The translations under genes and the position numbers were made by a program. Shown here piece by piece: positions 8,305 through 58,564 of a stretch of DNA of 64,000 nucleotides. The notes beneath the pieces are model-generated. The model made no database searches. It saw only the letters and a program-made list of their open reading frames with translations, and had not been told where the DNA came from. The DNA lies in NCBI RefSeq assembly GCF_004339525.1, contig NZ_SMGE01000001.1:2232001-2296000 (forward strand). Reading direction: 5' to 3'. Source of the stretch: Flavobacterium sp. 90 (lineage in GTDB: Bacteria; Bacteroidota; Bacteroidia; Flavobacteriales; Flavobacteriaceae). Every line of letters begins with the position of its first letter. Within the stretch, counting starts at the first letter, position 1.

Positions 8305-8742
8305 TCTTGTTTTATTTGAATCGCAAACATGCAAAGTATTTCGCAAATCGCGCAAAGTTTTTTTTCTTATTATTTGTTTATACTTTTCAAAAATAGAATA
8401 AATCTTTTGATTTTTTTTAATCTAATTCACTCTAACTTCTTTTGACTTGGAGTTAAACTCTTTCTCATATTACTATACACTTTCCTCTATTATTTTCTGA
8501 AGTCATATTTTCATTTTTAGAAACAATTTAAAACATCGACAGTTTGTCGACAGTTCAAACTGTCCGATAAAATCGGACACTTCACTTCCTTCTTTGATTT
8601 AAAGTTTATAATTTTAATTTATTCTAGCTTTTACTTTTCAATTGTACGATTTTATCGTACGTTTCAATCTTTCCATTTTTAGCGACATTTTTCACTTTTA
8701 ATATAACATCAAAACAATATCTTTGCCTTTAAGCATATACCT
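8305..8742. other. Gene-free gap with four short palindromes
   Basis: No gene is visible. The gap starts with a GCAAA-rich fragment (8331-8362) related to the tandem array near 44 kb. It also holds four short perfect palindromes: TCGACA/TGTCGA at 8536-8550, GACAGTT/AACTGTC at 8549-8564, TGTCCGAT/ATCGGACA at 8561-8579, and GTACGAT/ATCGTAC at 8644-8660. The last two share the core CGATAAAATCG in opposite orientation. A TATCTTTG -7 box for the DUF1294 gene lies at 8718-8725. Confidence 0.6.
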
Positions 8743-9635: not shown

Positions 9636-9688
9636 TTTTTCTATACTATTAAGTTGTGTATTACAAATTTACTCATTTAATAAATGTT

Positions 9689-9795
9689 TGCCACGAATTT
9701 CACTAATTTTCACTAATTTCTTTTTCATCGTTAGTTTTAAATCCTGCGCAAAACACAATAATTAAAATTGGTGTACATGCGTGAAATTCGTGGCA
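9689..9795. repeat. Palindromic intergenic element, TGCCACGAATT family, copy 1
   Basis: TGCCACGAATTTCAC (9689-9703) and its exact reverse complement (9781-9795) flank a 77-bp spacer that also holds a direct repeat of TTTCACTAA. Related inverted pairs sit at 42197-42257 and, more diverged, at 47617-47686. All are between genes. Confidence 0.75.
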
Positions 9796-10426
9796 GAAAA
9801 ACATAATATTACAACTATCTTACTGTCAAAAACTTAACACTTATCAACATTATTAACAACTCTATAAGTATCTCATAATCAATAAATAATAATCAATATT
9901 TTTGTTAAAATTTTATAATGTTAATACCAAAAGCTAATTCGTTGATATTCAATTAACTTTAAGTTAACATTATTTGTTAATAAGTTGAGATAGAAAATTA
10001 GAAGTTTTTTTTGGTTGTGTCGAAAAAAAACCTAATCCAAAACCGGAATGAAATAACCTAATAAAGTTTGATGAATTTTTGGAAAAGTTATCAATATCAA
10101 AAATGCTATTTTCAACAAATATCAACATGTGAACTTATCTACAAAATGAATTACTTTTTGGTTGTTAACCGTTGTTAATTAAAATACAAAAAGTCTTAGA
10201 AATTAATCGTTTAACAAAATATAAGTATGTTGATAACTCAAGATAACTAAGAGAAACTTCATTTCAATACTTTTAAAAATAAATTTACTGCACATATTAA
10301 CAAGCTATAATAACAAACAAAAATTAATTTAATTTAAATTTTTCTTTTTGTTGTATTTAATATATGTTGACAACTTTGAAAATTTAAAAAGAAAAAAAAA
10401 TCTTGAAATTGAAAAATTAGATGAGT
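9796..10426. other. AT-rich gap with DnaA-box-like nonamers; possible replication origin
   Basis: No gene is visible. Box-like nonamers include TTATCAACA at 9841-9849, TGTTAATAA at about 9974, TTATCTACA at about 10135 (one mismatch to TTATCCACA), TGTTGATAA at about 10208 (reverse of TTATCAACA) and TGTTGACAA at about 10365. The region is extremely AT-rich. Genes to the left are mainly on the minus strand and genes to the right mainly on the plus strand. A parS cluster lies 18 kb away. The origin assignment is inference. Confidence 0.35.
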
Positions 10427-10660
10427 TTAAACAATTTTAAGTGGGTTATTAAGATTGTCAAGAATTTGCTGAACTTCTTCGAAATCGTTTGGATGAACTT
10501 TGAGTTTAATTCCGCCAAGTGCAGCGGAGTACATTGGAGCCACAGAAAGGGTGATTTCGTTTTCGAAAAAATACGGAATTTCTTCTTGTTCTAGTAAGTG
10601 TTTGAGAACTACGGTTTCGTGCTGATAATTGAATACTGCAATGGTTTTGAAGCTTTCCAT
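10427..10660 (-). CDS. DUF2007-type putative signal-transducing protein
   Basis: The 77-aa cytosolic protein has the DUF2007 (PII-like fold) pattern. It opens with FKTIAVFNYQHETVVLKHLLEQEEIPYFF, shown here only in part as motif TIAVFNYQHE then LLEQEEIPYF. A central VAPMYSAALGGIKLKV strand follows, and it ends in a helix with FEEVQQIL. The family is small and its role is unknown. It is divergent from rnr with a 198-bp gap. Confidence 0.75.
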   Translation of the reverse strand: MESFKTIAVFNYQHETVVLKHLLEQEEIPYFFENEITLSVAPMYSAALGGIKLKVHPNDFEEVQQILDNLNNPLKIV

Positions 10661-10858
10661 AATGCGTCTTTTTGTAAAGATACGAAATGAGTATAACTAA
10701 AGATTTTTCGTTATCAGTAATTTTAAATAAGCGAATTACAAATGACCTTTGAAAATCAATAAGTCCCTCCTTTTGAAAGTTATATTTTTAATAATTTATT
10801 TGTTAAAATCTATAATCTGATATCTTATTTGTAATTTTAACTTTTTAAGAAAAGATAT

Positions 10859-27600: not shown

Positions 27601-28074
27601 AAAAATGGACAAGGAAATAAAAGTGGAGGTAAAGGTGACGATAATAAAGATGGTAATGATGGAGAAGGAGATGCAGAGGCTATCATGGAAATTTACAAAG
27701 AGCAAGTAAAACTTCGTGAAGCTTTACAGAAAGAATTAGCTAAACAAGGATTAGATTCTCAAGGTAAATCTGTAATCGATCAAATGAAGGCTTCAGAAAA
27801 ACAACTTTTAAATAAAGGTTTTAAGAATGAAAACTTGCAAAGAATACTTAATATTCAACAAGAATTATTAAAATTAAACAATGCAGTACAGCAACAGGGG
27901 CAAGATACAAAGCGTCAATCTGAAACAAACAAGGCTGAATTTTTTAATAGAACGAATGCTTTACCTAGTTCACTTTTGGATTATTTAAACAGTGTGGAGA
28001 TTTTAAATAGACAATCACTACCTTTGCGCTCGAATTTTAATCAAAAAGTTCAAGAATATTTTAATACAAAATGA
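24697..28074 (+). CDS. Large DUF4175 membrane protein
   Basis: The 1125-aa protein starts at a TTG (24697), since no in-frame ATG lies between the previous stop and MNELIKG at codon 20. It has N-terminal membrane helices at about 22-45 and 50-75 and a third at about 154-172. A beta-rich periplasmic part with Ig-like segments follows to about 490. A long Lys/Glu/Gln coiled coil runs from about 500 to 780 and a Gly/Lys/Glu-rich low-complexity stretch from about 930 to 1010. DUF4175 proteins are conserved in Bacteroidota, but I know of no established function. Its stop overlaps the ybeY start (ATGA), so ybeY is translationally coupled. Confidence 0.85.
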   Translation: MKTTSAIYQKLEGFIKKYYMNELIKGSLLFIGFGLLYFLFTLFIEYFLWLKPLGRTLLFWIFIGVEVFLLFRFILFPIFKLFKLQKGIDYNQASTIIGNHFTEVSDKLTNFLQLSASENSIESSELMLASIEQKANSLQPIPFGNAINFKTNKKYLPLAIVPILLFAVFYISGNSNVISQSLNRVVHFNATFLPPAPFKFVVLNANLQTEQNKDFVVKMESVGNVVPENVMIHIGNESYFMESSQQGKFEFKIEKPVSNVEFSFEGNSVSSEEYELKVITVPSIANFEMVLNFPSYLKKKSETIQGTGNAIVPEGTLVTWRMNTQSTQEIVWKDENSVFKFNKAENEFKLAKNISQNTEYQILTSNNKVKNYEKLDYQLSVIKDQHPTITVSPAPDSLKLDKNYVLGRLGDDYGLSKLQVVYYERNKPNTAKRGTIPVKSGVFDQFVFNFPSNLAVQEGVSYEYYFEVFDNDAPHGFKSTKSSVFSDRVSTTDEIHDMELQQQNDNINSLEKSLKNQTKQFSEMDKIQKAGKEKDNLEFKDQQKVNDFIKRQKQQDELMKQFAEKMNKNLDKFQSEKKDKTADDLQKRLENAEKDLEKNQKLMDELKNLNDKLNSEELFDKMEKFKQISKNQSRNLEQLVELTKRFYVSKKAEQVADKLKKLADKQEELSNKEKENTQDKQEDINKAFDKIQEDLKDLKEENKTLKAPLDIPNDASKEKDLKNDLQKASEELSKKNSSSAKPKQKSAAKKMKSMAEQMDAGMEGGEQEQLEEDVAMLRQILDNLLAFSLSQEDVMKQFKSMKLGSSAFTKNIKVQQNLKQQFRYVDDSLFAMSLRNPKIAEDVTKEIGNVQYNVDKAIESLSDVQVPKGVSHQQYAVSSANKLADFLSDLLNNMQMSMSKPGSGKPKPGDGQGMQLPDIIQKQKGLADKMKEGMKPGNKPGEGKSGEGKESQGKEGQGKDGKEKGGEGKNGQGNKSGGKGDDNKDGNDGEGDAEAIMEIYKEQVKLREALQKELAKQGLDSQGKSVIDQMKASEKQLLNKGFKNENLQRILNIQQELLKLNNAVQQQGQDTKRQSETNKAEFFNRTNALPSSLLDYLNSVEILNRQSLPLRSNFNQKVQEYFNTK

Positions 28075-28490
28075 TCAATTTTATTTACGAAACCGAATTT
28101 ACTTTAGATAACGAACAAGCCTTTGCAGATTGGTTAAGTGCTGTAATCGTTTCTGAAAACAAAAACGAAGGTGAGATAAATTACATTTTTTGTGATGATG
28201 AATATCTTCATAAGATAAATGTAGAATATCTAAATCACGATACACTAACAGATATTATCAGTTTTGATTACACAGTTGGTAATGAATTAAACGGAGATAT
28301 ATTTGTTTCTGTTGAAAGAGTAGAGGATAATGCTAAGGATTTTAATGTTTCTTTTATTGAAGAATTGAAACGAGTTCTTGCTCACGGTATACTACATTAT
28401 TGTGGATACAAAGATAAGAGTGATTCTGAAGCTGAACTTATGCGTTCAAAAGAAGATGAAAAGATTGCAATGTTTCACGTGGAACAGTAA
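28071..28490 (+). CDS. ybeY: Endoribonuclease YbeY (16S rRNA maturation)
   Basis: The 139-aa protein has the YbeY signature near the C-terminus: HGILHYCGYKD, where the canonical metal motif is H-x3-H-x5-H. Here the third histidine is replaced by Asp, a variant I believe is frequent in Bacteroidota. YbeY processes 16S rRNA and supports ribosome quality control. The final codons MFHVEQ are encoded by a parS-like site (28471-28486). It overlaps the DUF4175 stop by 4 bases. Confidence 0.92.
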   Translation: MINFIYETEFTLDNEQAFADWLSAVIVSENKNEGEINYIFCDDEYLHKINVEYLNHDTLTDIISFDYTVGNELNGDIFVSVERVEDNAKDFNVSFIEELKRVLAHGILHYCGYKDKSDSEAELMRSKEDEKIAMFHVEQ

Positions 28491-29142
28491 TTAAACCACT
28501 TTTAAGTTTTTAAAACTTTATGTTCCACGTGAAACATGTTTATCTAAATACATAGATTTTTACAAACGTTCCACGTGAAATATTTTTTAAAATTGTAAAT
28601 TTTATACGTTCCACGTGGAACGTATAAAGTATGATTTTGAAAGATTCAGAGATGTTGAATCTGGAAATTTATAAGATTTAGTATAAAGTGTTCCACGTGG
28701 AACAGAGAATAATCGGTTTAGATTTTGATTTTTCGTGATCGAAAATTTGAATTTTAAATCGTTCCACGTGGAACAAGATATGTTTGTACGAGTGAAATTT
28801 TAGATTTTGAATGTTCGGAACTGAAAGAATAGTGTTTCACGTGGAACAGTTTTTTAAATTTTGAGGCTTGAATTTAAAGTTTTGAAATCACCAGTGTTTT
28901 GATTTTTATATTGAGTTTTGAATTTTTAAGTTGGGTTTTCTTTCAAAAGAATTAAGAATGTTTCACGTGGAACAGGAGTTTTGTTTAGAAAATTCTACTC
29001 AAATGAGTGAAGAATGTGTTTGTTTAATCTGTTCCACGTGGAACAGATTTTAGCTTTTTAAGACGAAATCTGGGTTTTCTTGATTGTGTTCTTGAATTTG
29101 AATATTTGAATTTTGCGCGTTAGCGCCGTTCCACGTGGAACA
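28471..29142. promoter_or_regulatory. parS: Cluster of ten parS-like sites (ParB binding)
   Basis: Ten 16-mers match the parS consensus TGTTNCACGTGNAACA, at 28471, 28521, 28567, 28607, 28689, 28760, 28833, 28959, 29030 and 29127 (first bases). Six are exact, two have one mismatch and two have two, all at the outer positions. The first lies inside the last codons of ybeY. The site at 28607 sits in a perfect 28-bp palindrome (28601-28628), and the one at 29030 in a 24-bp palindrome (29026-29049). Spacing is 40-126 bp. This is a dense chromosomal ParB-nucleation array upstream of mnmG; no parA or parB gene is in this window. The rest of the 716-bp gap up to mnmG is AT-rich and gene-free. Confidence 0.85.
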
Positions 29143-29206
29143 AAAAGAGTTGAAAAAGTAATTCTGAGAATCGCCTTAAACGGTTTGAAGAGAATAATAA
29201 AACAAA

Positions 29207-31078
29207 ATGTTTTTAGAAGAATACGATGTTATTGTAGTTGGTGCAGGTCATGCTGGATCTGAAGCCGCGGCAGCGGCCGCAAATTTAGGATCAAAAACTT
29301 TATTGGTTACCATGAGTCTGCAGAACATTGCGCAGATGTCTTGCAACCCAGCGATGGGAGGAATTGCAAAAGGACAGATTGTGCGTGAGATTGATGCGCT
29401 TGGAGGATATTCGGGAATTGTTTCCGATCGCACGGCAATTCAATTCAAGATGTTGAACAAGTCGAAAGGACCAGCAATGTGGTCGCCAAGAGTTCAAAGT
29501 GATCGAATGCGTTTTGCCGAAGAATGGAGAATGATGTTGGAGGGAACTCCAAATCTTGATTTCTACCAAGAGATGGTGAAAGGTTTGATTATTGAGAACG
29601 GAAAGATTAAAGGAATCAAAACTTCATTGGGAGTAGAGATTCGATCTAAATCTGTTGTGTTGACAAATGGAACTTTTTTGAATGGTTTGATTCATATCGG
29701 AGAAAAACAATTCGGAGGAGGAAGAGCAGGCGAAAGTGCTGCAACTGGAATTACCGAAGATTTGGTGAAAGCCGGATTTGAATCAGGAAGAATGAAAACA
29801 GGAACGCCACCAAGAGTTGATGGACGTTCTTTGGATTATTCGAAAATGAACGAAGAAAAAGGAGATGCAAAACCGGATAAGTTTTCTTATTCTGATTTAA
29901 CCGTTCCGTTAACAAATCAAAGATCTTGTTATATGACGTACACGTCATTGGATGTTCATGATATTTTAAGAGAAGGTTTTGATCGTTCGCCAATGTTCAA
30001 CGGAAGAATCAAAAGTCTCGGTCCAAGATATTGCCCTTCGATAGAGGATAAGATTAATCGTTTTGCTGATAAAGAGCGTCACCAATTATTTGTTGAGCCG
30101 GAAGGTTGGAATACTTGTGAGGTTTATGTGAATGGATTTTCAACTTCGCTTCCGGAGGATATTCAATTTAAAGCTTTGCGTTCAGTTGTAGGTTTTGAAA
30201 ATGTGAAATTCTTCCGTCCAGGTTATGCGATCGAATATGACTATTTCCCTCCAACACAATTGAAACATACTTTGGAAACGAAGTTAGTTGAAGGTTTATA
30301 TTTTGCCGGACAAATAAATGGAACGACAGGATATGAAGAAGCAGCTTCGCAAGGTTTAATGGCAGGAATAAATGCGCATTTAAAAGTGCATGAAAAAGCG
30401 CCATTGATTTTGAAACGTGATGAAGCTTATATTGGAGTTTTGATTGACGACTTGATTACGAAAGGAACGGAAGAACCATATCGTATGTTTACGTCAAGAG
30501 CAGAATACAGAACATTGTTGCGTCAAGATAATGCAGACTTTAGATTAACGCCAATGTCGCATGAAATTGGTTTGGCTTCTGAAGCTCGTTTACGAAGAAT
30601 GGAAAAGAAATTAAACGAATCTGAAAAGATGGTTGCTTTCTTCAGAGAGACGAGTGTTTCGGTTGCAGAAACAAATCCAATTTTGGAAGCGAAAGAAACA
30701 GCTCCAATTACGCAAGGTGATAAAATGTTTAAAGTTTTCTCACGTCCTCAAATTGAATTGGAGGATATGTTGAAATTTGAAAAAGTAAAAGAGTATATCG
30801 AATCGAATGATGTAGATCAAGAGATTTTAGAACAAGCCGAAATTCAGGTTAAATATTCTGGATATATCGAAAAGGAAAGAAATAACGCTGATAAACTTAC
30901 TCGTTTAGAAGAAGTGAAAATTCCGGAGAATTTCGATTATAACAAAATCAAATCAATGTCAATTGAAGCAAAACAAAAATTGAGCAAGATTCGTCCTGTG
31001 ACAATTTCTCAAGCTTCAAGAATAAGCGGAGTGTCACCAAGTGATATTTCCGTATTGTTGATTTATATGGGAAGGTAA
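29207..31078 (+). CDS. mnmG: tRNA uridine-34 carboxymethylaminomethyl modification protein MnmG
   Basis: The 623-aa flavoprotein has the length usual for MnmG (GidA). The FAD-binding GxGxxG appears as GAGHAGSEAA (about 12-21), followed by QMSCNPAMGGIAKG and FGGGRAGESAATG, typical of the family, and the C-terminal helical domain (QASRISGVSPSDISVLLIY). With MnmE it installs the cmnm5 group on wobble uridine of several tRNAs. The gene directly follows the parS cluster, an association common near bacterial chromosome origins. Confidence 0.95.
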   Translation: MFLEEYDVIVVGAGHAGSEAAAAAANLGSKTLLVTMSLQNIAQMSCNPAMGGIAKGQIVREIDALGGYSGIVSDRTAIQFKMLNKSKGPAMWSPRVQSDRMRFAEEWRMMLEGTPNLDFYQEMVKGLIIENGKIKGIKTSLGVEIRSKSVVLTNGTFLNGLIHIGEKQFGGGRAGESAATGITEDLVKAGFESGRMKTGTPPRVDGRSLDYSKMNEEKGDAKPDKFSYSDLTVPLTNQRSCYMTYTSLDVHDILREGFDRSPMFNGRIKSLGPRYCPSIEDKINRFADKERHQLFVEPEGWNTCEVYVNGFSTSLPEDIQFKALRSVVGFENVKFFRPGYAIEYDYFPPTQLKHTLETKLVEGLYFAGQINGTTGYEEAASQGLMAGINAHLKVHEKAPLILKRDEAYIGVLIDDLITKGTEEPYRMFTSRAEYRTLLRQDNADFRLTPMSHEIGLASEARLRRMEKKLNESEKMVAFFRETSVSVAETNPILEAKETAPITQGDKMFKVFSRPQIELEDMLKFEKVKEYIESNDVDQEILEQAEIQVKYSGYIEKERNNADKLTRLEEVKIPENFDYNKIKSMSIEAKQKLSKIRPVTISQASRISGVSPSDISVLLIYMGR

Positions 31079-31084
31079 AAAGTG

Positions 31085-31140
31085 ATCAGTCTCAGTTTTT
31101 AGTTTTCAGTGAATGCTGGGTACTGAAAGCTGAGACTGAT
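31085..31140 (+). terminator. Stem after mnmG
   Basis: ATCAGTCTCAG (31085-31095) pairs with CTGAGACTGAT (31130-31140) across a 34-base loop and is followed by TTTTAAATT. The long loop makes termination only plausible. Confidence 0.4.
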
Positions 31141-31147
31141 TTTAAAT

Positions 31148-31371
31148 TGTTCCACGTGAAACTATTTTTTAAGATAATTTGAATTACTGAATGTTGCAGA
31201 TTTTTTTTGTTTGCGGACATGTTATATTGTAGAGATGCACAGCAGTGCATCTAACGCAAAGTATGCGGTTTGATTAAAAAAGAACTATCAGAATTTAGAC
31301 GCACTGCTGTGCGCCTCTACGGTGAAAATGGCAATGTTATAGATAATGATTGAATTGTTCCACGTGAAACG
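31148..31371. promoter_or_regulatory. parS: Two outlying parS-like sites after mnmG
   Basis: TGTTCCACGTGAAACT at 31148-31163 and TGTTCCACGTGAAACG at 31356-31371 each have one mismatch to the parS consensus. They flank a palindromic element at 31229-31321. Confidence 0.65.
31229..31321. repeat. Inverted pair of GTAGAG-GCAC palindromes
   Basis: The left unit (31229-31252) contains the hairpin GATGCAC-AGCA-GTGCATC. The right unit (31296-31321) is its diverged reverse complement with GCACTGCTGTGC. The whole is an REP-like intergenic element of about 93 bp. Confidence 0.65.
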
Positions 31372-31576
31372 AATTTAAAGTAAATTGCTTTTTTAATCTG
31401 TTTAATTCTGAATTATCATTTTGGTACAGTTTGTCATTCCGAGGAACGGGGAATCTCCATGAGTAACTCCATAATCTATAAAAATAATTTTTCTCGATAT
31501 TGAAATGAAATTTTCTAATTAATAAAATCTTGGAAAGAATCTAAAATCTAAACTCAGAAATCGAAAATTGTTTTCT
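31372..31576. other. Gap before the acetyltransferase gene
   Basis: No gene is seen. A fragment with the core CGAGGAACG near 31440 resembles the arm of the inverted repeat at 14502-14581. Confidence 0.4.
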
Positions 31577-32041
31577 ATGAATATTATTGAAAAAGATGTT
31601 TTGTCTTTGGAAGAAAAAGATTCCTTAATGCAACTTTGGAATAATGAATATCCAGTAAAATTGCATTTGAAAACTATTGAAGATTTTGAATTGTATTTAA
31701 ATGGACTTTCAAATACAAAACATTATTTGTTGCTTGATAATTCAAATAAAATAAATGGATGGACTTTTACTTTTTTAAGAGAAGATGAAAATTGGTTTGC
31801 AATAATTTTGGATAGTCAAATTCAAGGAAAAGGAAATGGTTCACTTTTGATGAATGAAATAAAGATTAAAAATAATAGTTTGAATGGTTGGGTAATTGAT
31901 CATGAAAACGAAGTAAAACAAAATGGAAATTTTTATAAATCTCCAATGCCGTTTTATATTAAAAATGGTTTCGCAATAATTACAGAGACAAGAATTGAAA
32001 ATGAAAAAATGTCGGCTGTAAAAATAAATTGGAAAGAATAG
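31577..32041 (+). CDS. GNAT-family N-acetyltransferase
   Basis: The 154-aa protein starts at the ATG at 31577 (MNIIEKDVL); the three earlier codons read from a TTG and are less likely. The acetyl-CoA motif A appears as IQGKGNGSLLMNEIK (Q-x-x-G-x-G/A). The substrate is unknown. It stands alone with a terminator hairpin (32071-32100) just after the stop. Confidence 0.75.
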   Translation: MNIIEKDVLSLEEKDSLMQLWNNEYPVKLHLKTIEDFELYLNGLSNTKHYLLLDNSNKINGWTFTFLREDENWFAIILDSQIQGKGNGSLLMNEIKIKNNSLNGWVIDHENEVKQNGNFYKSPMPFYIKNGFAIITETRIENEKMSAVKINWKE

Positions 32042-36753: not shown

Positions 36754-36769
36754 TGTTCCACGTTAAACA
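36754..36769. promoter_or_regulatory. parS: Degenerate parS-like site
   Basis: TGTTCCACGTTAAACA has one core mismatch to the parS consensus, 7.6 kb from the main cluster. The core G-to-T change breaks the palindrome, so ParB binding is doubtful. Confidence 0.35.
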
Positions 36770-53581: not shown

Positions 53582-56500
53582 ATGAAGAAAATTTTACTAT
53601 TCATAACTTTATTTTACGGTTTTTCAAATGCACTCTATTCTCAGGACAAAAATGAGAATGGAGTTGTTTCGTTTTCGTTACCTATAAGAAATTCTTTAAA
53701 GTTTAATAGATATTTAATCAACCCTGCATTCAGTTTTGTTCGTGAGACAAATGCCTATGCAAGTTTTTATAATAAAAGACAATGGGTGCAATTTGATAAT
53801 GCCCCACAAACTTATTTAGCCAATTATTCAGGTCGTTTTAGAGAGAATGAAGCATTTGCTTTTGGTCTTTTTCAGCAAAATTATGGTTTAATGACCGTGT
53901 TTGGAGGAATAGGAAACTTTGCTCATAATATCGTTTTGCAGGAAGACAGCAATCTAACTTTTGGTTTGAATGTAGGTTTTTACAAAAGCGGATTGGATCA
54001 GGGGAAAATAATCTCAGATGACCCAACTATTTTAAATGGTGATTATCCATCAAATATGTTGCTTACTGTAAATCCAGGAATTAACTACGGAACAGCATTT
54101 CTTGATTTTGGATTATCGATTAACAATTTAATCCTTTACAATTTTGGATCAGGAATCGTAAAAGACGATCCGGAAAGAGCAATAGAATTGCATGCAATGT
54201 ACACTGGATACATTGACAGCTATGGCTTTTTTGAAAGAAGTAAATTTTCGGGAATTGTAAAAACAGAAGTAAAAAAAGATAAAACAGTTCTTTCAGGTCT
54301 TGCCATGCTTACACTTCAGCAAGGAGTTTGGGCGCAAGCAGGTTATAATACATTATATGGAGTTTCAGCAGGATTAGGAGTTAATATTTCGCCAAGTATT
54401 GCGATCGAATACAACTACGAAAGAGGAATGGGTAATTTCTCAAATCTTGGCGGTTCTCATGAATTTGCTATTGCATATAAATTCAAAAACAGAAATTACT
54501 ATTACGGAGACGATGAAGAAGGTTCTCTTATAGATCCTGCAAAAGCAAAACCTGTTAAAGCGAAACCTAAACCGAGTACTCCGGTTACTCGTGTTGATGG
54601 AGCCGAAAAAGCAAGACTAGCTGCTGAAGCTAAGGCTGTTGCCGATGCAGAAGCGAAACAAGCAAGACTAGCAGCTGCCGAAAAAGTGAAGGCTGATGCC
54701 GAAGCTGCAGCAAAAGCAAAATTAGAAGCAGACAATAAAGCTAAAGCAGATGCTGAAGCTATCAAAATAAAATTAGCCGCAGATGCAAAAGCAAAAGCCG
54801 ATGCAGCAGCAGCAGCGCGAGCACAAACTGCAACTACAAACAGAGCAGTTGGTGCAGCACAAAAAACACAAGCACAATTAACAGCTGATAAAGCAAGAGC
54901 CGATGCAGAAGCGCGCAGAATTAAATTAGCTGCAGATAATAAAGCAAGAGTAGATGCCGCTGCAGCAGCAAGGGCACAAGCAATTGCAAACAAACCTGCA
55001 GGACCAGGTTCAACAGCACAAAAAACACAAGCGCAACTTGCAGCTGATAAGGCAAAAGCAGATGCAGAAGCTATGAAAGCGAAGTTGGCTGCAGATAAAT
55101 CTAAAGCAGACGCTGAAGCCGCAGCAAAAGCAAAAGCTGCTTCGCCACAAAAAACACAAGCGCAACTTGCAGCTGATAAGGCAAAAGCAGATGCAGAAGC
55201 TATGAAAGCGAAGTTGGCAGCAGATAAATCTAAAGCAGACGCTGAAGCTGCAGCAAAAGCAAAAGTTGCTGCGCCACAAAAAACGCAAGCACAATTAAAT
55301 GCTGAAAAAGCTCAGGCAGATGCAGAAGCAGCAGCTAAGAAATTAGAAGCAGATAATAAAGCAAAAGCAGATGCAGAAGCATTAAAAGTTAAACTAGCTG
55401 CAGATGCAAAAGCAAAAGCTGATGCCGCAGAAGCGAAACGTAAAGCAGATGCAAAAGCAAAAGCTGAAGCCGCAGATTTACAATCGATTTTGGCTGCAGA
55501 TGCAAAAGCAAAAGCAGACTCAGACGCATACCAGGCTAGATTGGCTGCAGAAGCGAAAATAAAGGCTGCTGAGGCAGTAAAAACAAAAGCGAGTATTGAT
55601 GCAGCAAACAAAGCAAAACTTGCCGCTGCTGCGAAAGCAAAAGCTGCAGAAGATGCTGCATTAAAAGAAAAATTAGCTGCTGATGCAAAAGCAAAAGTTG
55701 ATGCAGAAGCAAGACAAGCAAGACTTGCTGCAGAAGCAAAAGCAAAAGCCGACGCTGAAGCCTTAAAAATTAAACAAGCTGAAGATGCTAAAGCAAAAGC
55801 AGAAGAAGACATATTACAAGCTAAACTAGCCGCAGATGCAAAAGCAAAAGCTGACGCAGAAGCAATACAAGCAAAATTAGCTGCAGACGCAAAAGCGAAA
55901 GCTGATGCAGAAGCATTACAAGCTAAGTTAGTAGCCGACGCTAAAGCAAAAGCTGACGCTGACGCTCTAAAAGTAAAACAAGCTGCTGATGCAAAAGTAA
56001 AAGCTGATGAAGAAGCATTACAAGCAAAATTAGCTGCAGACGCAAAAGCGAAAGCTGATGCAGAAGCTCTACAAGCTAAATTAGTAGCCGACGCTAAAGC
56101 AAAAGCAGATGCTGAAGCTCTTAAAGTTAAACAAGCTGCAGACGCAAAAGTAAAAGCTGATGAAGAAGCACGTCAGGCAAAATTAGCTGTAGACGCAAAA
56201 GCGAAAGCCGATGCAGAAGCACTACAAGCTAAGTTAGCTGCAGACGCAAAAGCAAAAGCTGATGCAGAAGCATTACAAGCTAAACTTGCTGCAGATGCAA
56301 AAGCAAAAGCTGACGCAGAAGCATTACAAGCGAAGTTAGCTGCAGACGCAAAAGCAAAAGCTGATGCAGAAGCATTACAAGCTAAACTAGCTGCCGATGC
56401 AAAAGCAAAAGCCGACATGGAAGCTTTGCAAGCAAAATTAATAGCAGATGCGAGAGTAAAAGCTGATGCTGAAGCAACAGCAAAAGCGAAAGCTGATGCT

Positions 56501-58564
56501 GAAGCTAAAAAATTACAAGAGGCTGAAGATGCGCGTCAGGCAAAATTAGCAGCCGATGCAAAAGCCAAAGCTGACGCAGAAGCATTACAAGCAAAATTAG
56601 CAGCCGATGCAAAAGCAAAAGCTGATGCAGAAGCATTACAAGCAAAATTAGCTGCAGACGCAAAAGCAAAAGCAGATGCAGAAGCATTACAAGCAAAATT
56701 AGCTGCGGACGCAAAAGCGAAAGCTGATGCAGAAGCATTACAAGCTAAACTAGCAGCCGATGCAAAAGCAAAAGCTGACGCAGAAGCATTACAAGCAAAA
56801 TTAGCTGCCGATGCAAAAGCAAAAGCTGATGCAGAAGCATTACAAGCTAAACTAGCAGCCGATGCAAAAGCAAAAGCTGACGCAGAAGCATTACAAGCAA
56901 AATTAGCTGCAGACGCAAAAGCAAAAGCAGATGCAGAAGCACTACAAGCAAAATTAGCTGCAGACGCAAAAGCAAAAGCTGACGCAGAAGCATTACAAGC
57001 AAAATTAGCTGCGGACGCAAAAGCGAAAGCTGACGCAGAAGCATTACAAGCTAAACTAGCTGCAGACGCAAAAGCCAAAGCTGATGCAGAAGCATTACAA
57101 GCAAGACAAGCTGCTGAAGAAAAAGCAAAAGTTGAAGAAGAAGCTCGTCAGGCGAAATTAGCTGCAGACGCAAAAGCAAAAGCCGATGCAGAAGCACAAC
57201 AAGCTAAACTGGCTGCTGATGCTAAAGCGAAAGCTGATATGATTGCACTTCAGGCAAAATTATTAGCTGATGCAAAAGTAAAAGCAGATGCTGAGGCTAC
57301 TGCACAATTACAAGCAGAAGAAGAAGCTAGACAATTGCAATTAGCAGAAGAAGCACGTCAGGCGAAATTAGCTGCAGATGCAAAAGCAAAAGCTGATGCA
57401 GAAGCATTAAAAGCAAAATTAGCTGCAGATGCAAAAGCAAAAGCTGACGCAGATGCATTAAAAGCAAAACAAGCTACGGATGCAAAAGCAAAAGCTGAAG
57501 AAGACGCGATCAGAGCCAGACAAGCGGCTGAAGAAAAAGCCAAAGCTGATGCAGAAGCATTACAATTAAAATTAGCTGCAGATGCAAAAGCGAAAGCTGA
57601 TGCGGAAGCTTTACAAGCAAAATTAGCTGAAGAAGCTGAATTAAAAGCTAAGCTTGCTGCAGATGCAGCAGCTGCAAAAGCTGCTTCAGCTCCTAAAGAT
57701 GATACAGCAAAAGCAATTGATAATTTGGCTTTATCTATAGAAAATTCAGGAAAAGCACAAAGCGATATATTGGCACAGTTTAATGCGACAGTGGCTAACA
57801 AACAAAAAGACCTGAACGACTTAAAAGAAGAAAATGACTTAAGTGATAAAGGAATTTATAAAGAGCCTAAACCATTCAAAAGTGTTGCTGCAGAAAATAG
57901 TCAGTTAGAAGCATTAAAAAACCAACTTGCTGACGCAAACAGAATGCAAAAAGCAGAAATTGACAAGTTGACTAATTTATATAATGAAAGACTTAAAAAA
58001 GTACCGAATAAAAATGATGCTTTAAATAGAGCGTATCTGGAAAAAATAAACCAATTAAAAGCAGCACAAATAAAAGCAGAACAAGATAGTGCAGCATTAC
58101 TGGCAGATTTAGAACGTATTAAAGCAGAAACTGAAATCGAGAAAAAACGTAGAATTAAACGTGCCGCTTACGAAAATGATCAGGGAAGATATGCACAGGA
58201 CCTAGCAGCTCTAAAACGTATTAAGGAAACAACAAAACCAAGTAGTACGCCATTAACTGCAAACGATTTTGATTTTGGAGAAGATCAGTCAAACATGCAG
58301 ATTATTAAGAATATTAAAAATTCTGATAGTGGTTATTATTTGATTATCGCGGTTCACAGCAGTGCCGAAAAAAGAGATGAATTCCTTGCCAAAGCGGTTG
58401 CCGCAGGACGTACAGATGTTAATTTCTTTTATAATATAACAACAAGTAAATACTATATCTATTACGAGAAATTTGAAGGTTTATCTGAAGCAACTAAGGC
58501 ATTAGAAGCAAAAGGAAGCAAACCATATAATGGAAAAATGGCTATCGTAAAAGTTGAGAATTAA
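53582..58564 (+). CDS. sprD: Gliding-motility protein SprD: PorP/SprF-like domain fused to an Ala/Lys coiled-coil repeat and a SPOR-like end
   Basis: The 1660-aa protein starts with a signal peptide (about 1-21). A PorP/SprF-type outer-membrane domain follows (about 20-315: NRYLINPAFSFVRETN, GFYKSGLDQG, GGSHEFAIAYKF), with the AFSFV/YNKRQW start typical of the family. After a Pro/Lys hinge (about 317-335) come roughly 1,000 residues of TolA-like Ala/Lys/Asp repeats. Near residues 990-1175 the 17-residue unit ADAKAKADAEALQAKLA is repeated about 11 times almost without change. Residues about 1375-1590 form more helical coil, and about 1590-1660 form a SPOR-like end (GYYLIIAVHSSAEKRDEFL ... YYIYYEKF). 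It probably links the T9SS or outer membrane to the cell wall or motor. The name is by operon position. Confidence 0.7.
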   Translation: MKKILLFITLFYGFSNALYSQDKNENGVVSFSLPIRNSLKFNRYLINPAFSFVRETNAYASFYNKRQWVQFDNAPQTYLANYSGRFRENEAFAFGLFQQNYGLMTVFGGIGNFAHNIVLQEDSNLTFGLNVGFYKSGLDQGKIISDDPTILNGDYPSNMLLTVNPGINYGTAFLDFGLSINNLILYNFGSGIVKDDPERAIELHAMYTGYIDSYGFFERSKFSGIVKTEVKKDKTVLSGLAMLTLQQGVWAQAGYNTLYGVSAGLGVNISPSIAIEYNYERGMGNFSNLGGSHEFAIAYKFKNRNYYYGDDEEGSLIDPAKAKPVKAKPKPSTPVTRVDGAEKARLAAEAKAVADAEAKQARLAAAEKVKADAEAAAKAKLEADNKAKADAEAIKIKLAADAKAKADAAAAARAQTATTNRAVGAAQKTQAQLTADKARADAEARRIKLAADNKARVDAAAAARAQAIANKPAGPGSTAQKTQAQLAADKAKADAEAMKAKLAADKSKADAEAAAKAKAASPQKTQAQLAADKAKADAEAMKAKLAADKSKADAEAAAKAKVAAPQKTQAQLNAEKAQADAEAAAKKLEADNKAKADAEALKVKLAADAKAKADAAEAKRKADAKAKAEAADLQSILAADAKAKADSDAYQARLAAEAKIKAAEAVKTKASIDAANKAKLAAAAKAKAAEDAALKEKLAADAKAKVDAEARQARLAAEAKAKADAEALKIKQAEDAKAKAEEDILQAKLAADAKAKADAEAIQAKLAADAKAKADAEALQAKLVADAKAKADADALKVKQAADAKVKADEEALQAKLAADAKAKADAEALQAKLVADAKAKADAEALKVKQAADAKVKADEEARQAKLAVDAKAKADAEALQAKLAADAKAKADAEALQAKLAADAKAKADAEALQAKLAADAKAKADAEALQAKLAADAKAKADMEALQAKLIADARVKADAEATAKAKADAEAKKLQEAEDARQAKLAADAKAKADAEALQAKLAADAKAKADAEALQAKLAADAKAKADAEALQAKLAADAKAKADAEALQAKLAADAKAKADAEALQAKLAADAKAKADAEALQAKLAADAKAKADAEALQAKLAADAKAKADAEALQAKLAADAKAKADAEALQAKLAADAKAKADAEALQAKLAADAKAKADAEALQARQAAEEKAKVEEEARQAKLAADAKAKADAEAQQAKLAADAKAKADMIALQAKLLADAKVKADAEATAQLQAEEEARQLQLAEEARQAKLAADAKAKADAEALKAKLAADAKAKADADALKAKQATDAKAKAEEDAIRARQAAEEKAKADAEALQLKLAADAKAKADAEALQAKLAEEAELKAKLAADAAAAKAASAPKDDTAKAIDNLALSIENSGKAQSDILAQFNATVANKQKDLNDLKEENDLSDKGIYKEPKPFKSVAAENSQLEALKNQLADANRMQKAEIDKLTNLYNERLKKVPNKNDALNRAYLEKINQLKAAQIKAEQDSAALLADLERIKAETEIEKKRRIKRAAYENDQGRYAQDLAALKRIKETTKPSSTPLTANDFDFGEDQSNMQIIKNIKNSDSGYYLIIAVHSSAEKRDEFLAKAVAAGRTDVNFFYNITTSKYYIYYEKFEGLSEATKALEAKGSKPYNGKMAIVKVEN

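Follow-up and report, generated by a model that had tools for sequence, protein, structure and literature searches.

A compact array of parS-like sites beside mnmG is very probably the chromosomal centromere of a Flavobacterium-type chromosome

The window analyzed here, the whole 64,000-nucleotide stretch of DNA at positions 2,232,001–2,296,000 of the contig, carries ybeY (rRNA maturation RNase; 28071–28490, plus strand; TIGR00043, 108.5 bits against a cut-off of 45) and mnmG/gidA (29207–31078, plus strand; TIGR00136, 846 bits against a cut-off of 525). YbeY was closest to Flavobacterium relatives, with up to 99% identity. Within the 672 bp at 28471–29142, which start in the 3′ end of ybeY and extend in the direction of mnmG, ten parS-like sites with at most two mismatches to TGTTNCACGTGNAACA were found. 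Six of them were exact 16-mers, located in the 3′ end of ybeY (28471–28486) and at 28521–28536, 28689–28704, 28833–28848, 28959–28974 and 29030–29045, the last of these inside a 24-bp perfect palindrome (29026–29049). The sites at 28760–28775 and 29127–29142 had one mismatch to the 16-mer, and those at 28567–28582 and 28607–28622 had two, the latter lying inside a 28-bp perfect palindrome (28601–28628). The 14-bp core GTTNCACGTGNAAC was exact in nine of the ten sites, and the tenth, a degenerate site (core at 28568), had one core mismatch. Two more sites with exact cores were located 3′ of mnmG, at 31148–31163 and 31356–31371, giving a total of twelve at the locus, ten before mnmG and two after it. 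With respect to the ten matches in 672 bp, the six exact copies, the two extended palindromes and the pair after mnmG, our rescan of the window agreed with the preliminary description of this DNA.

The matches to the 16-bp parS palindrome (six exact 16-mers, 11 exact cores) exceeded those expected by chance. At up to three mismatches to TGTTNCACGTGNAACA, the window held 20 matches, whereas 100 shuffled versions averaged 3.1 (sd 2.0) and had at most 10. On the single contig of 6,653,812 bp (6.65 Mb), the exact core occurred 11 times, and all copies were located at 2,260,472–2,263,370 (window 28472–31370), i.e. within 2.9 kb. Ten one-mismatch cores were present on the contig, seven of them away from the array, and a reversed control pattern gave three matches at up to one mismatch. 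The 800 kb sampled outside the window contained no exact core and two one-mismatch cores. The one-mismatch cores at window positions 36755 and 37926 are possibly outlying sites that have decayed. The parS reading proposed earlier therefore held at the scale of the genome, where the sites formed a single cluster near the skew minimum and were not evenly spread.

The first site of the array encodes the final residues of YbeY, MFHVEQ, as the preliminary description had claimed. Among 80 named relatives, chosen by YbeY similarity, the site in the ybeY tail was kept in 79, and the remaining one (L093) had one mismatch. The codons CAC (His) and GTG (Val) were used in all 81 ybeY tails (80 relatives and the window), compared with 133/333 of the His codons and 49/731 of the Val codons in the rest of ybeY. 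Because these codons are fixed in the tail and otherwise in the minority, the ybeY tail is, judging from codon use, constrained as DNA and not as protein alone, and the earlier suggestion that the site constrains the coding sequence is supported by the comparison of C-termini across relatives. The end of ybeY was found in eight family loci; L062 and L076, from two other genera, had an identical MFHVEQ tail and offset, and in the other six the site was located after the stop codon. A parS site inside a gene has a precedent in trpCF of Corynebacterium glutamicum (PMC7083940).

The core was present in 118 of 119 genomes of the family draw. Among the 117 genomes of the family outside the window's genus, exactly two sites were found in 96, three in 14, one in 3, four in 2, five in 1 and none in 1, and the site pairs among the matches listed were mostly ~1.9 kb apart. 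The sites were next to mnmG in 29 of the 30 fetched family loci. The exception, L065 (genome G017), had three exact cores within 1.6 kb; its fetched 3 kb contained neither mnmG nor ybeY, which places this cluster in different surroundings. Given the 96/117 genomes with two sites and this adjacency to mnmG, the ancestral state of the family appears to be two sites next to mnmG, from which the window's genus departs. For other orders of the class, mnmG was located within the 1.5-kb flank in 14 of 20 fetched loci and was absent there in six. A site was detected in 229/247 genomes of the phylum draw and in 108/146 genomes of one other family.

Third-position GC skew, based on 40 stretches of 20 kb and the window, was mostly negative to the left of ~2.24 Mb, mostly positive from ~2.24 to 5.3 Mb and negative again by 5.48 Mb, with single stretches deviating. 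All six 16S genes were directed away from 2.24 Mb, two on the minus strand (0.84 and 1.81 Mb) and four on the plus strand (2.89 to 5.42 Mb). The cumulative GC-skew minimum of the window was located at 10.0 kb (chromosome near 2,242,000), in the AT-rich rpiB–rnr gap (9636–10858), a candidate oriC, and the minimum fell in the same gap in G592, G320 and G264, i.e. in 4/4 genomes examined including that of the window. From the skew minimum, the 16S gene direction and the recurrence of this gap, we infer that the origin probably lies in the rpiB–rnr gap. In all four genomes the array started 16.8–19.1 kb to the right of the skew minimum; here the distance was ~18.5 kb, and the exact cores, within their 2.9 kb, were thus clustered near the putative replication origin. 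Placement of oriC via canonical DnaA boxes was abandoned, as the boxes were weak: none of the three TTATC[ACT]ACA motifs in the rpiB–rnr gap of the window was the canonical DnaA box TTATCCACA, and such motifs numbered two in G592, two in G320 and none in G264. The weak boxes and the exceptions in third-position skew count against the oriC assignment. A classical origin gene cluster consists of dnaA and parAB at the origin. This arrangement was not found here, with dnaA at 3,454,359 and parB at 3,227,824, 1.2 and ~1 Mb, respectively, from the skew minimum. The rpiB–rnr gap may be the oriC of the whole genus, and in this genome it is 1.2 Mb away from dnaA. Elsewhere in the window (53582–58564), a stretch of higher GC encodes a protein of 1660 aa whose N-terminal domain is PorP/SprF (type IX secretion), and the protein just before this one gave a weak CHU_C match.

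A chromosomal-type ParB and a ParA are encoded in the genome. A single protein scored above the TIGR00180 family cut-off for ParB; it has ParB_N, HTH_ParB and ParB_C domains, its best solved relative by sequence was 7bnk, labelled ParB family protein (E 2e-52), and the ParA gene adjoins parB. ParB was encoded in 10/10 genomes checked, and since four of these had no exact core, the exact motif is no general requirement in the class. A canonical Smc, for which a ParB–parS platform could serve in loading, was not found in the genome (G000) with the standard Smc model: the best score against TIGR02168 was 25.8 bits, compared with a cut-off of 567, and the best-scoring protein carries an eCIS core domain. 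A Hi-C study of gut bacteria likewise found none of the known condensins in the two Bacteroidetes that it included (PMC10197239).

In 17 non-overlapping close pairs of loci, the share of differing bases was 3.4% in sites and 20% in spacers, although the alignment partly favours low divergence of the sites. Of the 109 sites in close pairs, 96 were exact, six had one mismatch, two had more and five were gapped. The start-to-start spacing before mnmG in genus loci was at least 37 bp, with a median of 52 bp (329 intervals), and a tighter spacing of 34 bp was observed elsewhere in the class (L171). The spacings gave no 10–11 bp signal of helical phasing. Tandem duplication of the gap sites was considered and rejected, as adjacent flanks (the ybeY site excluded) matched at 9.6/26, compared with 9.0 in shuffled sequence, with 0/252 pairs reaching 20; TRF reported no repeat array of sites over window positions 28400–31600. 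Hence, the gap sites do not look like a recent tandem repeat. For the sites downstream of mnmG, flanks of non-adjacent pairs matched at 15.2/26 (13 pairs). Locus L126 (Flavobacterium hydatis) has six sites downstream of mnmG, starting at 8499, and fewer upstream. These downstream copies have a common right flank, as seen by eye and with no TRF report, and this shared flank gives signs of local copying among downstream sites. Half-site types depended on the position of the site: the first site after mnmG was of type GTTCCACGTGAAAC in 72/78 loci, and the further downstream copies were of the same type in 35/35 cases; the ybeY site was mostly of type GTTTCACGTGGAAC or GTTCCACGTGGAAC. The simplest reading is that the sites are inherited individually.

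The sites could mainly be operators at which ParB or another protein controls ybeY or mnmG. The adjacency to mnmG in nearly all fetched family loci would fit such a role, as would ten family loci in which a site starts 18–37 nt upstream of the predicted mnmG ATG. However, sites are located 3′ of mnmG too, up to nine of them precede mnmG, which is beyond the needs of a simple operator, and six of the 20 loci from other orders lack mnmG in the 1.5-kb flank. We therefore regard a primarily regulatory function as improbable; any part the sites play in regulation would be a side role and not the main one. Alternatively, the palindromes might function at the RNA level and form terminators or hairpins in the ybeY–mnmG interval. 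A 740-nt RNA folded far better than 20 shuffles (z −10.7), and six terminator-like sites were found in 27900–31600, compared with 1.6 (sd 1.2) in shuffled sequence; three of the six are array sites, two on the plus and one on the minus strand. Good folding is, however, expected of any set of repeated palindromes, and the variable positions anti-covaried, the reverse of RNA covariation. Across two variable positions in 458 sites, the non-pairing combination C..A was over-represented (187 observed, 149 expected), and the pairing classes taken together were under-represented (C–G 128 vs 166, T–A 28 vs 67, T–G 114 vs 75). Compensatory changes at paired positions, as in an array of RNA hairpins or terminators, were thus not found, and we consider a function in RNA extremely unlikely.

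We consider it very likely that the array is the chromosomal centromere (parS region), in a compact and expanded form, of a Flavobacterium-type chromosome with a ParABS system. This assignment draws on genomic features that were observed directly, namely the presence of the sites and of the parAB genes, together with the position, the conservation and the genome-wide uniqueness of the sites. The distance of parAB from the array counts against it, as do the 4/10 ParB-encoding genomes without an exact core. According to the mechanism that we propose, ParB from the parAB pair ~1 Mb away would bind and load at all twelve sites, probably in the form of CTP-driven clamps that slide onto adjacent DNA, and ParA would then separate the newly copied origin regions. 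The two sites next to mnmG, roughly 18 kb from the origin, would be the ancestral core, and in the window's genus the ybeY–mnmG side would have grown into a dense array, with one site held in the ybeY coding sequence. If more sites mean more loading, as we infer, packing them in <3 kb would give more ParB loading at one point and no wider zone.

Chromosomal ParABS centromeres share with this locus a 16-bp palindromic parS near the origin and a chromosomal ParA and ParB, and multiple parS sites are common among them; the locus differs from them in having ten sites in 672 bp, parAB and dnaA ~1 Mb away and no Smc above the model cut-off (PMC7333895). The unusual density pointed out in the preliminary description is evident from a comparison with C. 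glutamicum, where ten sites near oriC, the one within the trpCF coding sequence included, span 35 kb and feed Smc loading (PMC7083940). One site is enough for near-normal segregation in C. glutamicum (PMC7083940), and segregation is sustained by one site in Pseudomonas aeruginosa (PMC5098823); these two cases argue for a contribution of extra sites to robustness and not to basic function. In gut bacteria, two Bacteroidetes included, the origin is marked by parS clusters and is not necessarily located at dnaA, as also appears to hold here; unlike the present analysis, the accessible part of that study mentions neither mnmG nor array expansion nor genome size (PMC10197239). In a limited body of literature, comprising titles and the beginnings of abstracts, we found no report of parS at mnmG or of parS number in relation to genome size in Bacteroidota. 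Features that appear to be new are the compact form, the family-wide anchoring at mnmG, and the series from two to twelve sites with its relation to genome size in a single genus, in a genome with no Smc above the cut-off. The preliminary description had not included the two sites typical of the family, the growth of the array with genome size in the genus or the distance to dnaA and parAB.

All 200 genomes of the genus draw had sites, 2 to 12 each, and site number increased with genome size (Spearman 0.75), averaging 3.1 in genomes <3 Mb (n = 29) and 9.5 in genomes ≥5.8 Mb (n = 13). Chance matches in bigger genomes were ruled out as the source of this trend, as 520 of the 524 exact sites in the whole-genome total were at the locus (78 complete loci, window included) and reversed-pattern controls gave 0–2 matches per genome in the genus draw. 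In a PGLS analysis of 78 of the 81 sequences (80 relatives and the window; L106, L113 and L120, cut by contig ends, were dropped), corrected with a tree of the single locus ybeY+mnmG, the slope was 1.37 sites per Mb (lambda 0.70, p = 3e-6), and under Brownian motion it was 1.10 sites per Mb (p = 3.5e-4). Sizes of the genomes other than that of the window were rounded to 0.1 Mb. The named set and the genus draw overlap (G301 and G387 list the same places) and are not independent.

We hypothesize that chromosome size sets site number. The specific proposal that, within this genus, site number at the one locus is a selected dose, with about one extra site per additional Mb, each site maintained individually and not copied as a repeat, and with apparently no standard Smc, is possible but on balance doubtful. 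Its rival is that a real parS cluster drifts in size by lineage, so that the correlation with genome size stems from the common history of large-genome species and not from selection, an account that we find plausible and place just short of probable; it bears on the size relationship and leaves the centromere assignment as it is. Drift would fit the weak or absent trend outside the genus, both in the rest of the family (rho 0.17, p 0.06, 117 genomes) and in the other family (rho 0.12, p 0.13 over 146 genomes; 0.20, p 0.04 over the 108 with a site), and a general size law is unsupported by these two draws. The 15 family genomes of ≥4.5 Mb outside the genus average only 2.4 sites, and the correcting tree of one locus and the choice of the named set by YbeY similarity also speak for drift. 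Against it, the PGLS slopes remained significant, the trend in the genus draw was present in genomes smaller than 4.5 Mb (rho 0.34) as well as in larger ones (rho 0.66), and the local non-coding fraction was no explanation (partial rho 0.79 in 78 loci with enough upstream DNA, a different subset from the 78 used for PGLS).

Two questions raised in a 2020 review are why the number of parS sites varies, given that one is often enough, and what causes the sites to cluster (PMC7333895). The genus offers a natural series, from 2 to 12 sites in a single conserved location, that bears on why bacteria retain many of them, and it does so apparently in the absence of the standard Smc, with which multiple sites are often connected. 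The array would also help to mark the origin in genomes where dnaA is a misleading guide.
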